From the NCBI RefSeq assembly GCF_000025625.1, contig NC_013923.1, forward strand, positions 186,001-250,000: a stretch of DNA of 64,000 bases. Reading direction: 5' to 3'. This document shows, one piece after another, positions 2 through 16,042 of this stretch; positions within the stretch are counted from its first letter, which is position 1, and each line of letters begins with the position of its first letter. Both the position numbers and the translations under genes were made by a program. This DNA is from Natrialba magadii ATCC 43099. GTDB taxonomy: Archaea > Halobacteriota > Halobacteria > Halobacteriales > Natrialbaceae. The notes below the pieces were generated by a model. That model was given only the letters and a program-made list of their open reading frames with translations, had not been told where the DNA came from and did no database searches.

Positions 2-1537
2 GCGGTGACGGACAGCCTGAATCGAGGCCCTGTCGACATGCGTCTCACCTGGACGTGGTACGGGTTGATGTCGATTGGGACGTTGTTGGCTGGGATCGCG
101 ATACTGGCAGGGTTTCTGGACGATCCACCATCTGTTCTCGGCTCCGAACTGAGCGCCGACGTTCTCTTTACGTTCTACGCACCGTTACAGGCGAACCCGA
201 TCTTTTACATTGGGCTCGTCCTGTTCGTCGTTGGAACGTGGCTCGCCGGCGCCGACTGGTTCCGAACCTGGTGGGCATGGAAGAAGGAAAACCCGGGCGA
301 ACGGATCCCGCTTCCAACGTTCATGGTGTTAACGACCATGATCATGTGGTACATCTCCTCGATCGGGGTGGCAGTCGCGATCCTCGCGTTTATCCTGCCG
401 TGGTCGCTCGGCCTGATCGATAGTCTCAACCCCACGCTAACCCGGACGTTGTTCTGGTACTTCGGCCACCCAGTCGTCTACTTCTGGCTGTTGCCCGCAT
501 ATATGCTGTGGTACATCGTCCTGCCAAAGCTCTCGGGCGGCCGGCTGTTCAGCGACCCACTGGCACGCGTCGTCTTCATCCTCTTCGTGTTGCTCTCAAC
601 GCCGGTCGGTATTCACCACCAGTACCTTGATCCGGGAATCTCTGAAGGATTCAAATACATAGTAATGACAAATACCATGTTCCTCCTGTTGCCGAGCCTG
701 TTGACAGCCTTTACCGTCGTCGCAAGTATGGAACATGGGGCGCGCCAGCGCGGCGGTGAGGGCACGTTCAACTGGCTCCGAGCGCTCCCCTGGCGTGACC
801 CTGCGTTCACGGGAATGGCCCTCGCCGGTCTCGTCTTTGCATTCGGCGGATTTACCGGAATCGTCAACGCCGGCATGAACATCAACTATCTCGTCCACAA
901 CTCGCTGTGGGTGCCCGGCCACATCCACACGCAGGTCGGGACTGCCGTCGCGTTAACGTTCATGGCCGGATCGTACTGGTTGATTCCACAACTGACCGGC
1001 AACCGTCTGGTTGGACGCCAGCTAGCACTGGTACAGGTCGTCCTCTGGTTCGTCGGAATCGTCTTCATGACGAACTCGATGTACCGGGGTGGGCTGATTG
1101 GAATCCCCCGGCGAACCGCGGAACCGCAATACTCGTTCGACTACGAGATTGCCGTCGGCTCGATTCCCGAACTCCGCGCCCAGCTTGCCATCGGCGGCAT
1201 GTTACTGTTCATCTCTGCACTGCTCTTTCTGACGATTATCCTCCTGACTGCGTTCAACAACGACAGCATCCCCGTCGTCGACGGGACGATTCCGCCGGCA
1301 CTGTCCGGTCCCGAGGACTCACCTCGTATTCTCGACGACCTTCGGGTATGGATCGCGATTGCACTGGTCCTCATCGTTATCGCCTACGCCTTCCCGCTCG
1401 CCAATATCGTGAGCCGCGGCGGGTTGTTCGGTCCTGACATCGGACCCTTCCCCGTCATCGTGGAAACCCTTACGTCTCTTCCGCCAGTCGCCGACGCATC
1501 CATGTACCTCGAGACCGTACTCGACGGTAAGTCCTAG
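2..1537 (+). CDS. cbaA: ba3-type cytochrome c oxidase subunit I, 5'-truncated by the window edge
   Basis: Catalytic heme-copper subunit of a ba3-type terminal oxidase in the cytoplasmic membrane, reducing O2 and pumping protons. Counting from the GTG at position 5, the CuB ligand and its cross-linked tyrosine are in HPVVY (H155, Y159), two more CuB histidines are H204 and H205, and the heme ligands are H306 and H308 in VPGHIHTQVG. About a dozen hydrophobic segments are visible. Compared with family members of about 560-600 residues, roughly 80 residues including the first heme-b histidine are missing, so the gene must start before the window and the GTG at 5 is not the true start. Two small membrane-protein genes follow, as in haloarchaeal cba loci. 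Confidence in family is high. Confidence 0.93.
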   Translation, partial: AVTDSLNRGPVDMRLTWTWYGLMSIGTLLAGIAILAGFLDDPPSVLGSELSADVLFTFYAPLQANPIFYIGLVLFVVGTWLAGADWFRTWWAWKKENPGERIPLPTFMVLTTMIMWYISSIGVAVAILAFILPWSLGLIDSLNPTLTRTLFWYFGHPVVYFWLLPAYMLWYIVLPKLSGGRLFSDPLARVVFILFVLLSTPVGIHHQYLDPGISEGFKYIVMTNTMFLLLPSLLTAFTVVASMEHGARQRGGEGTFNWLRALPWRDPAFTGMALAGLVFAFGGFTGIVNAGMNINYLVHNSLWVPGHIHTQVGTAVALTFMAGSYWLIPQLTGNRLVGRQLALVQVVLWFVGIVFMTNSMYRGGLIGIPRRTAEPQYSFDYEIAVGSIPELRAQLAIGGMLLFISALLFLTIILLTAFNNDSIPVVDGTIPPALSGPEDSPRILDDLRVWIAIALVLIVIAYAFPLANIVSRGGLFGPDIGPFPVIVETLTSLPPVADASMYLETVLDGKS

Positions 1538-6660: not shown

Positions 6661-6850
6661 GTGAAGTACCCCGCGCACGGTGGCGCGGGGCATCCGTGTT
6701 TAGTCCTGCACTGCTGATGCAACGGTCTTTAATTCCTCTCGCGCTTCCATCTCTGGTTGCGCCGACGTTCCGTGTTGGTGAACACCCGAAGCGAAAATTG
6801 CTCCGTGAGAGCCGGGGCCTCCACCAGCCCCCGATGCCGCCCGTCTCACC
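6661..6850 (-). ncRNA. candidate omega/reRNA at the 3' end of tnpB
   Basis: In characterised TnpB systems the guide RNA scaffold overlaps the 3' end of tnpB and extends through the element's right end into flanking DNA, which supplies the guide. Here that would be the tnpB tail plus the GC-rich hairpin at 6669-6690, with the guide read from bases below about 6660. Position and the hairpin are the only evidence, so the boundaries are approximate. Confidence 0.35.
6669..6690. repeat. subterminal hairpin of the TnpB element (3' side of tnpB)
   Basis: Perfect 8-bp stem CCCCGCGC/GCGCGGGG with the loop ACGGTG. The loop is identical to that of the hairpin at the other end of the element. Confidence 0.85.
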
Positions 6851-8037
6851 GTCCACACGCGTGGAAGGGTTTCGAGAGACGGCACATTTCCAGACTGCTC
6901 GTCAAACCATTCCTGCACAACGCATACCGCCGCTTTCCTATCCGCATGGTCTTGGAACTCACACCGTTTGCACTTGAACCGCTTCTTGTGGCGGTTCGCT
7001 CGTTCTGTGTGCTGGCACTCTGTTCTCGGACATCGCTGGCTCGTGTACTCCGGGTCAACCACATCGCTGGGAATCCCTTCCCACGCAGCCTTGTACGACA
7101 CCATGTTTTGGAGTGCAGCAAACGGGAGTGAGTGCAGCCGTCGATTCATTCGCGTTCCATAATCGATGGAGTCTCGCATGTCTTTGAGGTCTTCAAAGAC
7201 GATTACCGGGTCCTCGAATTGCGAGACCCAGTCAACTACTTGCCGCGATACTTTGTGCAGGCAATCGTGAACGTAGTCTCGTTCCTCCGTCTGCACGGAG
7301 GATGCAAACGCGGTCTGGTTGGCTTTCTGCATCCGCTTGCGCTTGGTGAAAAACTCGTGTCGCTGTTCTTTCACCGACGGATACTCAAACACAACCGACT
7401 GTTTCACCCCACCGTTCCGACTCATTGCAGCAAGGGCAATACAGTCCTCGTTCACATCCACACCAACAATTGTGTCCGCGTCGTTCTTGCTGGCGACGCG
7501 ATGAGTCTCGTGGGTGACTGTTACGTGGAGTCGCCACTCACCGTGTTTGTGAACGACTTCAGCGGTTCCAACCCGCCACTCTTCGTCGTTGAATGCGATT
7601 TGGAGTCTGTCGAAGTGGTCGGGGTTGCCACGAAGTTCACCTTTGACGTGCGTGCCTCTTGTGGCGGTGATACGGAACCGAACCGTCCCGTCGTCTTCGG
7701 GGAACAGGCGATAGCCTTCGCTGTGGTTCATCACCATCGGGTACGACTCGTCGATGTATGGGTAAGGTCGACCCCACCCGTCATCTTTGTTGTCGTGATA
7801 GGTTTTGATTTCACCGAGTGCCTTGTCAACGATGAGTTGGGTGGTGTTGTTGACGTGATCAGCGTTGGCGACAACAGTTGATTTGATCTCGTCCCAATCC
7901 CAACCAGCTCGGTCGAGTCGATTGGCTTCGTTGCGGATGCGGCGGGCCTCAATACAGCCGGTTTGCAGGTCGTCCCCACTCCCCGTATGGATGTCTAGTC
8001 CGAACGATAAGGTTTGGGTGAGTTTGGACGACTGCAC
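6700..8037 (-). CDS. tnpB: TnpB, RNA-guided RuvC-like nuclease of an IS605-type element
   Basis: A 445-residue OrfB/TnpB protein that cleaves DNA guided by an RNA from the element end. RuvC residues are visible as D194 in VGVDVNED, E282 in VFEDLKD and D366 in DHADRKAA. The zinc ribbon has C336, C341, C356 and C359. The usual last motif is DxNAA, but here an Lys replaces the Asn (DRKAA), which is unusual. The open frame is full length with a normal N-terminal region. A TATA-like element at 8061-8070 lies about 25 bp before the ATG, so a leaderless transcript is likely. There is no tnpA partner, and the neighbours (CBS protein, E1-like enzyme) are unrelated host genes. Confidence 0.92.
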   Translation of the reverse strand: MQSSKLTQTLSFGLDIHTGSGDDLQTGCIEARRIRNEANRLDRAGWDWDEIKSTVVANADHVNNTTQLIVDKALGEIKTYHDNKDDGWGRPYPYIDESYPMVMNHSEGYRLFPEDDGTVRFRITATRGTHVKGELRGNPDHFDRLQIAFNDEEWRVGTAEVVHKHGEWRLHVTVTHETHRVASKNDADTIVGVDVNEDCIALAAMSRNGGVKQSVVFEYPSVKEQRHEFFTKRKRMQKANQTAFASSVQTEERDYVHDCLHKVSRQVVDWVSQFEDPVIVFEDLKDMRDSIDYGTRMNRRLHSLPFAALQNMVSYKAAWEGIPSDVVDPEYTSQRCPRTECQHTERANRHKKRFKCKRCEFQDHADRKAAVCVVQEWFDEQSGNVPSLETLPRVWTVRRAASGAGGGPGSHGAIFASGVHQHGTSAQPEMEAREELKTVASAVQD

Positions 8038-13925: not shown

Positions 13926-14070
13926 ACGTGGGGGTGGCTACAGCGTCGGTGACTATGATAGTATGGCTGGTCCTGAAGAGTCCGCTCGTTGATTGACGGG
14001 TCGCGTCGCTCACCGGCCGACGTGGGAGCGGACTGTACCTACTTGTGGGCGAACGTGGTAGGAGGCCCCG

Positions 14071-15318
14071 ATGTACAACACAATTCTCGTACCGACCGAC
14101 GGGAGTCCGGTAGCGGAAGATGTCGGAACGTACGCAATCGGACTCGCAGAGCGATTCGACGCGGCGATACACGTCGTCTCCGTCCTCGAGGGAGGGCTCG
14201 TCGCCAGCGGTGACGAAGACGAGGGTGAACGAGCGGTTGAGGAACTGGCCGATCGCGCACGGGATCGCGGCCTCGACGTGACGACCGAACTCCGCGAGCA
14301 GGCGGATGCGGTTCACGAAGAGATCCTCGCAGCGGCCGACGAACGCGACGCGGACCTGATCGCGATGGGGACGACCGGCCGCAGCGGAGTCGGCAGATTC
14401 CTGCTTGGCAGCGTCGCCGAACAGACGCTACGGGAGTCGTCAGTCCCGGTCGCGACCGTCCACGAAGAGACGGCACTCGAAGGCGCGTTCGAGCGCGTCC
14501 TGGTTCCGACTGACGGAAGCCACAGCTCGGAGGCCGCCCTCGAGCACGCCATCGATCTCGCGGCCGAAACCGGCGCGCGGCTGCACATCGTCCACGTGAG
14601 CGACGAGGAGGCCGTCGAAGAGATGGAGACGTTCGACGTTGCGGATACTACTGCGGCTAGTGACGACGACGAGATCGGTCTCGAACCGGTCGACGACGCG
14701 CTCGAGTACCTGCGCGGGACGCAACTGGACGTCGTCGACATATCGATTCCGAGCGGGCGAGTCGACCAGCAAATCCTCGCGACTGCCGCAACGTCCGATG
14801 CCGACTGCATCGTGATGGGAACGCACGGCGAGACTGGACTGCGGCGCTACCTCCTCGGAAGTACGACCGAACGCGTCGTCCGTTTCACCGGCGTGCCGGT
14901 GATCGGCATCAGCGCGACGCGCGCCGAAGCCGTGACCGTCGAGTATCTCGATTACCAGGTCGTCGACGAACGGGGCTGGTCACTCGAGGACGAGGACCTC
15001 CTCGAGCGGGCCGCGGAAGGCGACCTCGACGACGAGGCTCACGGCACGTTCGAGGTGGGACGCGACGAGTACGTCCTCGACGCCGCCGAGGCGGCCGGCC
15101 ACAGTTGGCCGTTTCACTGTCGGGCCGGCGGCTGTGTGAACTGTACTGCCGTGTTGCTCGAGGGGGAACTCGAGATGGACGTCCAGCGAAGTCTTTCGGA
15201 GGAGGAAGTCGAAGAAAAGGGGTTCCGGTTGACTTGTGTAGCCACGCCAGCAAGCGATTCGATCGAACTCGTCTATGGGGCGAAGCATCTCGACGAGCTT
15301 CGTGATCGCGTCGTATAG
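14071..15318 (+). CDS. fusion of two Usp domains with a halobacterial-type [2Fe-2S] ferredoxin
   Basis: A 415-residue cytoplasmic protein in one uninterrupted frame. Residues 1-132 and 141-282 are Usp domains with nucleotide loops GTTGRSGVGRFLLGS and GTHGETGLRRYLLGS. Residues 286-415 are a complete plant-type ferredoxin with the acidic halobacterial insert (LDYQVVDERGWSLEDEDL), iron ligands C350, C355, C358 and C389 (C-x4-C-x2-C then C), and the family ending AKHLDELRDRVV. The join lacks any start-like or stop codon, so this is a genuine fusion and not two genes. The next gene, 73 bp on, encodes an MsrQ-like heme membrane protein, a plausible electron-transfer partner. The function is inferred: nucleotide- or stress-gated one-electron carrier. 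Confidence 0.9.
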   Translation: MYNTILVPTDGSPVAEDVGTYAIGLAERFDAAIHVVSVLEGGLVASGDEDEGERAVEELADRARDRGLDVTTELREQADAVHEEILAAADERDADLIAMGTTGRSGVGRFLLGSVAEQTLRESSVPVATVHEETALEGAFERVLVPTDGSHSSEAALEHAIDLAAETGARLHIVHVSDEEAVEEMETFDVADTTAASDDDEIGLEPVDDALEYLRGTQLDVVDISIPSGRVDQQILATAATSDADCIVMGTHGETGLRRYLLGSTTERVVRFTGVPVIGISATRAEAVTVEYLDYQVVDERGWSLEDEDLLERAAEGDLDDEAHGTFEVGRDEYVLDAAEAAGHSWPFHCRAGGCVNCTAVLLEGELEMDVQRSLSEEEVEEKGFRLTCVATPASDSIELVYGAKHLDELRDRVV

Positions 15319-15391
15319 GAGTCCTACCGGGAATAGCTTTATTTGAGCGATCGGTGTTCATCTGGTCACAATCGAGTGACACGACGATACC

Positions 15392-16042
15392 ATGACGGCA
15401 GACACCAACAACGAGCTCACCCATCATCTGGGCGTAGCGATCGGAAGCATCGTCGTCGCAGTCCTGCTGTGGGTCGTCGGATACGGGGAGCAGCGGGTCG
15501 TCGGCGCCATTCCCTTCTTCATCCTGTTTTTCGTGATGGTTATCGGCCCACTGGTTCGCATCCGGCCGTCGATCAGGCGTCGGTTCTCCGGGAACTTCCC
15601 CGTGAACTGGCGGTCGGAACTGGGGATCTGGTTCGCCATCTGGTCGGTCGTCCACGTCCTGTTCGTCTTCTGGGCACGGGACTGGGACGTCGTCGGCTAT
15701 CTCGTCGACATGAGTCCGTGGGCGTTCGGGGCCATGGTTGCCGTCCTCATCGCGATCGTGCTGGCGTTTACCTCCAACAACTGGGCCTACGACTATCTCG
15801 GTGCAAAAGCGTGGAAGTGGCACCAGAGCCACGGGACGTACGTCATCTTCTGGCTCGTGGCCGTCCACGGCTACGATCGAGCGTATCTCCGTCCGTACGA
15901 AGAGATGGGCTTTCCCTCGGACGACCCGCTCCACCTGATTTACCTCGCAATGATCGTCCTGGTGGTCATCCTCCACGTGGTCGCGTTCGCGGCTGTCGTC
16001 TCCGAGTATCGGAAGAGTGGCGAGTATCCACCCGATCTCTAG
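15392..16042 (+). CDS. ferric-reductase-like (MsrQ-type) heme membrane protein
   Basis: A 216-residue membrane protein with about six helices. The core resembles the ferric-reductase-like domain: H88 in one helix, and WKWHQSHGTYVIFWLVAVH placing H147 and H159 one helical run apart, as heme-b ligands do in MsrQ and YedZ. The family passes electrons from a soluble donor through heme to an extracytoplasmic acceptor. The gene directly follows the Usp-ferredoxin fusion, whose iron-sulfur domain could be that donor (inference). Its stop codon shares the bases CTAG at 16039-16042 with the stop of the convergent ClC gene. No NAD- or FAD-binding domain is attached. Confidence 0.78.
   Translation: MTADTNNELTHHLGVAIGSIVVAVLLWVVGYGEQRVVGAIPFFILFFVMVIGPLVRIRPSIRRRFSGNFPVNWRSELGIWFAIWSVVHVLFVFWARDWDVVGYLVDMSPWAFGAMVAVLIAIVLAFTSNNWAYDYLGAKAWKWHQSHGTYVIFWLVAVHGYDRAYLRPYEEMGFPSDDPLHLIYLAMIVLVVILHVVAFAAVVSEYRKSGEYPPDL

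Follow-up and report, generated by a model that had tools for sequence, protein, structure and literature searches.

Tandem Usp domains fused to a halobacterial [2Fe-2S] ferredoxin, and their genomic pairing with a putative heme membrane protein

The biochemical role of ATP-binding universal stress proteins (Usp) is a long-standing question. A gene of Natrialba magadii ATCC 43099 poses it in a particular form: what would two Usp domains do on a complete ferredoxin? The gene lies in the 64,000-nt stretch analysed here (contig NC_013923.1, positions 186,001 to 250,000), called the window below. All parts of the system are of known kinds, and their combination appears to be undescribed. The first-pass annotation had known of no characterised protein of this combination. 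This agreed with the open-access literature, in which our searches turned up neither a Usp-ferredoxin fusion nor its pairing with a membrane protein.

Domain make-up and spread of the fusion

The gene product, UspFd, had been described as an uninterrupted frame of 415 codons with two Usp domains, their nucleotide loops, and a complete ferredoxin with four cysteines and the halophilic insert. The description was borne out in each of these parts. The frame spans 14071 to 15318 (+), starts with ATG and contains no interruption. Pfam recognised two Usp stretches (192 bits summed), assigned to residues 1-133 (14071-14469) and 140-282 (14488-14916; best Pfam stretch 140-278), and Fer2 on residues 325-393 (49 bits, cut-off 21). 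A short linker (residues 281-288; 14911-14934) leads to the ferredoxin domain (residues 289-415; 14935-15315), which was matched over the whole length of NCBIfam model NF041393, 'ferredoxin Fer' (198.9 bits, cut-off 150). NF041393 is defined for single-domain proteins of about 128 aa; UspFd, with 415 aa and two N-terminal Usp domains, falls outside that definition. A Natronococcus occultus plasmid homologue is annotated 'ferredoxin Fer'. The closest solved structures to the ferredoxin part were those from Halobacterium (1e0z, E ~1e-48) and Haloarcula (1doi, E ~1e-47), and both alignments covered the full length with the halophilic insert. The whole protein is acidic, with 93 Asp and Glu against 29 Lys and Arg.

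An AlphaFold model, made with 33 homologues as input, gave a tandem Usp part and a ferredoxin part at a mean pLDDT of 81.5. The modelled Usp part resembled the tandem Usps Rv2623 (3cis) and Archaeoglobus 3loq (Z 26.9 over about 250 residues) and TTHA0350 (Z about 27), and the modelled ferredoxin domain resembled 1doi (Z 24, rmsd 1.1, 128 residues). Both nucleotide loops were modelled at low confidence. They span 14368-14412 (G100-x2-G103-x9-G113-S114) and 14818-14862 (G250-x2-G253-x9-G263-S264).

A search for the same domain order in other genomes, which the first-pass annotation had proposed, returned 32 further full-length fusions with 49-84% identity to the window protein, making 33 copies in 30 haloarchaeal genomes. 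The annotation had also named two things that would speak against the fusion. One was a stop or frameshift at the Usp/ferredoxin junction. The frame runs on through it in the 32 homologues found elsewhere, in other genomes or other loci, and this ruled out a frameshift or chimeric-assembly artefact. The other was absence of the fusion from all close relatives. Relatives that carry it were found, yet within the genus only one of the six other genomes has the gene, and about 78% of the family lacks it. Of the 125 family genomes, 27 carry it, three of these in two copies, and it occurs in three further genomes from outside the family. Outside Halobacteria, a sample of 197 genomes from the phylum yielded none. 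In the plasmid collection, a single record covered at least 80% of the UspFd query. This patchy distribution fits loss or lateral spread.

The cluster ligands C350, C355, C358 and C389 (15118-15237) were unchanged in 33 of 33 copies. The Usp residues D10, G100, G103, G113, S114, G250, G253 and G263 were also kept in all 33, and the motif G-2X-G-9X-G(S/T) was present twice in all copies but one, the window protein being among the 32. From the last Usp motif to the ferredoxin there were 11-12 residues in every homologue measured. The ferredoxin domain was the better conserved part, with a mean majority-residue frequency of 0.79 against 0.71-0.72 for the Usp domains, and 34 invariant columns against 19-20. 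These conserved residues would most naturally be read as those of an electron carrier with nucleotide sites.

UspFd shares with the haloarchaeal Fer proteins (1e0z/1e10, 1doi, NF041393) the four cysteines in CX4CX2C...C, the insert and the end-to-end match; it differs from them in being fused to two Usp domains and in forming a separate group in the tree. The fusion ferredoxins occupied one side of a branch and 21 standalone ferredoxins the other (support 100/97; 100% of bootstraps), and this single group ruled out a recent private fusion. The cluster loop reads CRxGGC[VI]xC in the fusions and CRAGACANC in 20 of the 21 standalone proteins. Where the standalone Fer has MDMQQILS, UspFd mostly has M[DE]..RSLS. 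An ordinary standalone Fer is also encoded in the genome of the window; the fusion is therefore no replacement for it.

The tandem Usps Rv2623, TTHA0350 and 3loq have the tandem fold predicted for UspFd, but they are without a redox domain. Rv2623 has the ATP motif in both domains, as UspFd does, and its growth effect is lost in mutants with lowered ATP binding (PMC2682197). By analogy, Rv2623 would be the closest precedent for a nucleotide dependence of UspFd. A 2025 survey of archaeal Usp architectures describes, in the text available, fusions with permeases and ion exchangers, and that portion of the text does not mention ferredoxin (PMC12159084).

The neighbouring membrane protein and its pairing with UspFd

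The gene downstream of UspFd in the window (15392-16042, +) encodes a 216-aa protein, whose homologue in N. occultus is annotated 'hypothetical protein'. Its profile matches were weak: 20.3 bits (E 6e-4) to Ferric_reduct PF01794, below the gathering score of 28, and 24.4 bits to the MsrQ equivalog NF003831, far under the cut-off of 130. The model was a six-helix bundle of moderate confidence (pLDDT 78). Its top fold matches were STEAP1/2/4, NOX5, cytochrome b561, Dcytb and SpNOX, with Z from 10.1 to 7.2. Each of these is a heme protein of the membrane, and the values lend support; for a helical protein, values below about 13 are not decisive.

Four residues, R74, H88, H144 and H159, were invariant across 34 homologues. 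R74 and H88 form R74-x13-H88 in TM3 (15611-15655), and H144 and H159 in TM5 (15821-15868) are candidate heme ligands. An Arg that replaces the first heme-spanning His marks the YedZ/STEAP branch of ferric-reductase-domain (FRD) proteins (PMC3591440); the 13-residue spacing in Arg-x13-His is our own reading of that paper. The conserved residues suggested that the protein probably binds heme, putatively heme b, and the model that it probably belongs to the YedZ/STEAP-type fold class. Here the Arg stands for the inner heme His. The signature predicts an outer heme only, so a cytosolic ferredoxin would need a flavin or quinone as an inner bridge.

The loop before TM3, judged by its charge, is a probable cytoplasmic loop. 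It has 4-5 Lys or Arg in groups I and II of the membrane protein, against 1-4, mostly 2-3, in a distant group. A loop this basic would favour the docking of acidic UspFd, though electrostatic attraction is weaker at high salt.

With MsrQ/YedZ, the heme subunit of MsrPQ, the protein shares R-x13-H and, in its model, the six helices and the short, FRD-only form. MsrQ pairs with MsrP, however, whereas here a ferredoxin fusion is encoded beside the membrane protein, and no MsrP-type molybdopterin reductase occurred among the neighbouring genes scanned. STEAP and NOX, its best structural matches, transfer electrons across the membrane to outer acceptors. STEAP2-4 and NOX own NAD(P)H/flavin domains (PMC3591440 and general background); the linked cytosolic protein here is instead a Usp-bearing [2Fe-2S] ferredoxin. 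The extracytosolic electron-transfer clusters of MsrQ-like proteins in PMC8238504 likewise have a modular membrane protein whose donor and acceptor genes can be exchanged. The defining partners there are flavinylated (ApbE/FMN-binding) and the donors often NAD-binding, in contrast to the [2Fe-2S] ferredoxins and Usps linked here. A link to FMN/ApbE flavinylation of that kind was considered and dropped, there being no such gene among the scanned neighbours.

The membrane-protein gene adjoined UspFd in 23 of the 33 loci, downstream on the same strand in 15 and divergently in 8. It lay within 5 kb in 27, the four non-adjacent cases being L069, L077, L078 and L090. Among the family genomes, 25 of 27 with the fusion carried the membrane protein, against 6 of 98 without it (Fisher p = 1.8e-18, phylogeny ignored), and all three fusion genomes from outside the family carried it as well. 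The two arrangements, and the spread over several families, make it less likely that a single block was simply inherited. Two loci, L081 and L092, had no recognised partner near UspFd, and in both cases the membrane protein is encoded at another place in the genome. The first-pass annotation, which had not noted the neighbour, had suggested a nucleotide-gated electron carrier for use under stress. Its electron-carrier part, still a possible function, was strengthened by the conserved partnership with a putative heme-binding protein of the ferric-reductase type.

The distances of the two proteins correlated over 23 pairs (r = 0.92), a between-group effect. Within the main group (group I) they did not correlate (r = 0.02, p = 0.41), and co-evolution of the two proteins within that group was therefore not supported. 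In one genome (G091, contig 2), the membrane-protein gene beside UspFd (L071:9467-10113) was split over two frames by an apparent frameshift; another contig of this genome carries a second pair that is intact.

Four loci without the membrane protein had a gene for a two-helix protein of about 70 aa directly downstream of UspFd (L075:7668-7880, L079:7658-7879, L080:7570-7782 and L082:7674-7886). This protein has a conserved H4 and NRWxH, and gave weak, sub-threshold matches to the DUF4405 and cytochrome b561 families. A further copy, L182:1501-1713, is not beside UspFd but precedes a cation/proton antiporter-like gene.

The distant group of membrane proteins (mostly 54-61% identity, 47% in L135) had no adjacent fusion. 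A gene for a lipobox [2Fe-2S] ferredoxin immediately preceded the membrane-protein gene in L127, L128 (7533-8630), L130, L131 and L135, and lay near it in L132. The longer versions have a twin-arginine-like start. The lipobox ferredoxins as a whole are possibly extracytoplasmic electron acceptors. All 17 of the strong lipoprotein matches (E up to ~1e-34) came from family genomes in which the fusion or the membrane protein is present (p = 3e-12, phylogeny ignored). The genome of the window had no lipoprotein-ferredoxin match at E 1e-20. The membrane protein thus recurs with a ferredoxin partner, which is cytosolic in UspFd and, in the lipoprotein, probably lies outside.

Promoter-like elements and the surrounding island

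The membrane-protein gene is preceded by a promoter-like element (15337-15380, +) with a TTTAT box and the inverted repeat GTCAC-N6-GTGAC (15365-15380). The box was kept in 16 of 16 group I loci examined, including the non-adjacent ones, and the repeat or variants of it in most. The first part of the element is unique within the window. The repeat by itself was not significant: with one mismatch allowed, it occurred 4 times in the window against 5.6 expected. The case for the repeat is one of conservation alone. The element is a candidate operator of a regulator.

UspFd has a conserved promoter-like element of another kind, TAnnTACTT...CGTGGTAGG, at 14036-14062 (+). A strict operon was unsupported, since each gene has its own conserved element, and the two genes are probably not one transcript.

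The pair lies in an island (1-34 kb of the window) that also encodes further Usps, a CBS-domain protein, DUF2267, a Ca-type P-ATPase, ClC, an ADP-dependent kinase and a PEP synthase-like gene. This mix is reminiscent of bacterial hypoxia or dormancy sets, among them the DosR regulon, of which Rv2623 is a member. A TnpB-type transposon protein with a Cas12f1-like TNB domain is encoded inside the island at 6700-8037 (-), suggesting mobility. In two other loci, partial ClC matches beside the pair (L064:10021-10285 and L077:12759-12932) were apparent remnants, and the neighbouring ClC seems dispensable.

Possible roles of UspFd

We interpreted UspFd, with about an even chance of being right, as a soluble carrier in the cytosol, dedicated to passing electrons to a membrane heme conduit and regulated by nucleotides through its tandem Usp. 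The [2Fe-2S] cluster of UspFd would receive electrons, one at a time, from the ferredoxin pool. Ordinary haloarchaeal ferredoxin is fed by 2-oxoacid:ferredoxin oxidoreductases, which are the probable source for UspFd too. UspFd would hand the electrons to the adjacent YedZ/STEAP-like protein, or to the two-helix protein that may replace it in some loci. Through the membrane protein they would reach an acceptor on the outer side, perhaps the lipoprotein [2Fe-2S] ferredoxin in some genomes. With its short linker and two conserved ATP sites like those of Rv2623, the tandem Usp may set docking or activity by the adenylate state. Electron disposal would then track the energy status, possibly under stress.

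This dedicated-carrier reading was drawn from the conserved cysteines and Usp loops, the adjacency in two arrangements and the co-occurrence. It drew further on the two-helix substitutes, the pairing with lipobox ferredoxins, the STEAP/NOX-like model, R74-x13-H88, the basic loop and the Rv2623 precedent. The sequences establish the fusion, how well it is conserved and its genomic pairing, together with a probable fold class for the partner; binding of cluster and heme, the direction of electron flow, control by nucleotides and a role in stress are inferred from them. Against it stand the prediction of an outer heme only, the separate promoter-like elements, the lack of correlation within group I, L081 and L092 with no recognised partner nearby, and the Usp-rich island. 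A stricter version, in which ATP or ADP on the fused tandem Usp switches ferredoxin delivery to the heme protein and so makes an energy-gated transmembrane electron valve, is possible, although we hold it rather doubtful. If true, a universal stress protein would thereby gain a direct redox output, and the disposal of electrons across the membrane would be coupled to adenylate charge.

The same domains may carry no current at all. The cluster might report oxidant, NO or iron state and switch regulatory interactions of the Usp pair. Usps are mainly regulatory, and the systematic change of the cluster loop from CRAGACANC to CRxGGC[VI]xC could tune potential or lability. We consider such a sensor unlikely, because conservation is higher over the entire ferredoxin domain than in the Usps, and because the protein usually encoded beside it is of a heme electron-transfer kind. 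The Usp pair might, conversely, be a docking or dimerisation module only, bringing a dedicated ferredoxin to the membrane protein, with a structural nucleotide. That would suit the short linker of near-constant length and the assembly of tandem Usps as dimers of tandems (PMC12159084). The two loop motifs in 32 of 33 copies, however, are stricter than a scaffold would seem to require, and the same survey notes Usp classes in which the ATP motif is absent. The scaffold thus seemed to us quite improbable.

The two genes could also be together merely because both reside in a mobile stress island rich in Usps and holding ion transporters, and the fusion might serve other proteins, for instance the K+, Cl- or Ca2+ transporters nearby. 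A Ca2+-type P-ATPase, ClC, Kef/TrkA-N proteins and many Usps do recur near the loci. These neighbours vary, however, whereas the pairing with a membrane protein survives two arrangements and apparent partner exchange, and in most group II loci the island genes are missing and the pair is kept. Coincidence of this kind is very improbable.

For the dedicated-carrier reading, the fusion and its linked membrane protein, found in several haloarchaeal families, would provide a measurable output, the rate of heme reduction, in titrations with ATP and ADP. The pairing also points to an apparently undescribed, ferredoxin-linked archaeal branch of YedZ/STEAP ferric-reductase-domain proteins, under the present annotations 'ferredoxin Fer' and 'hypothetical protein'. 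At the left edge of the window, a gene at 38-1537 (+) encodes a COX1-family heme-copper oxidase subunit I, possibly of related respiratory function.
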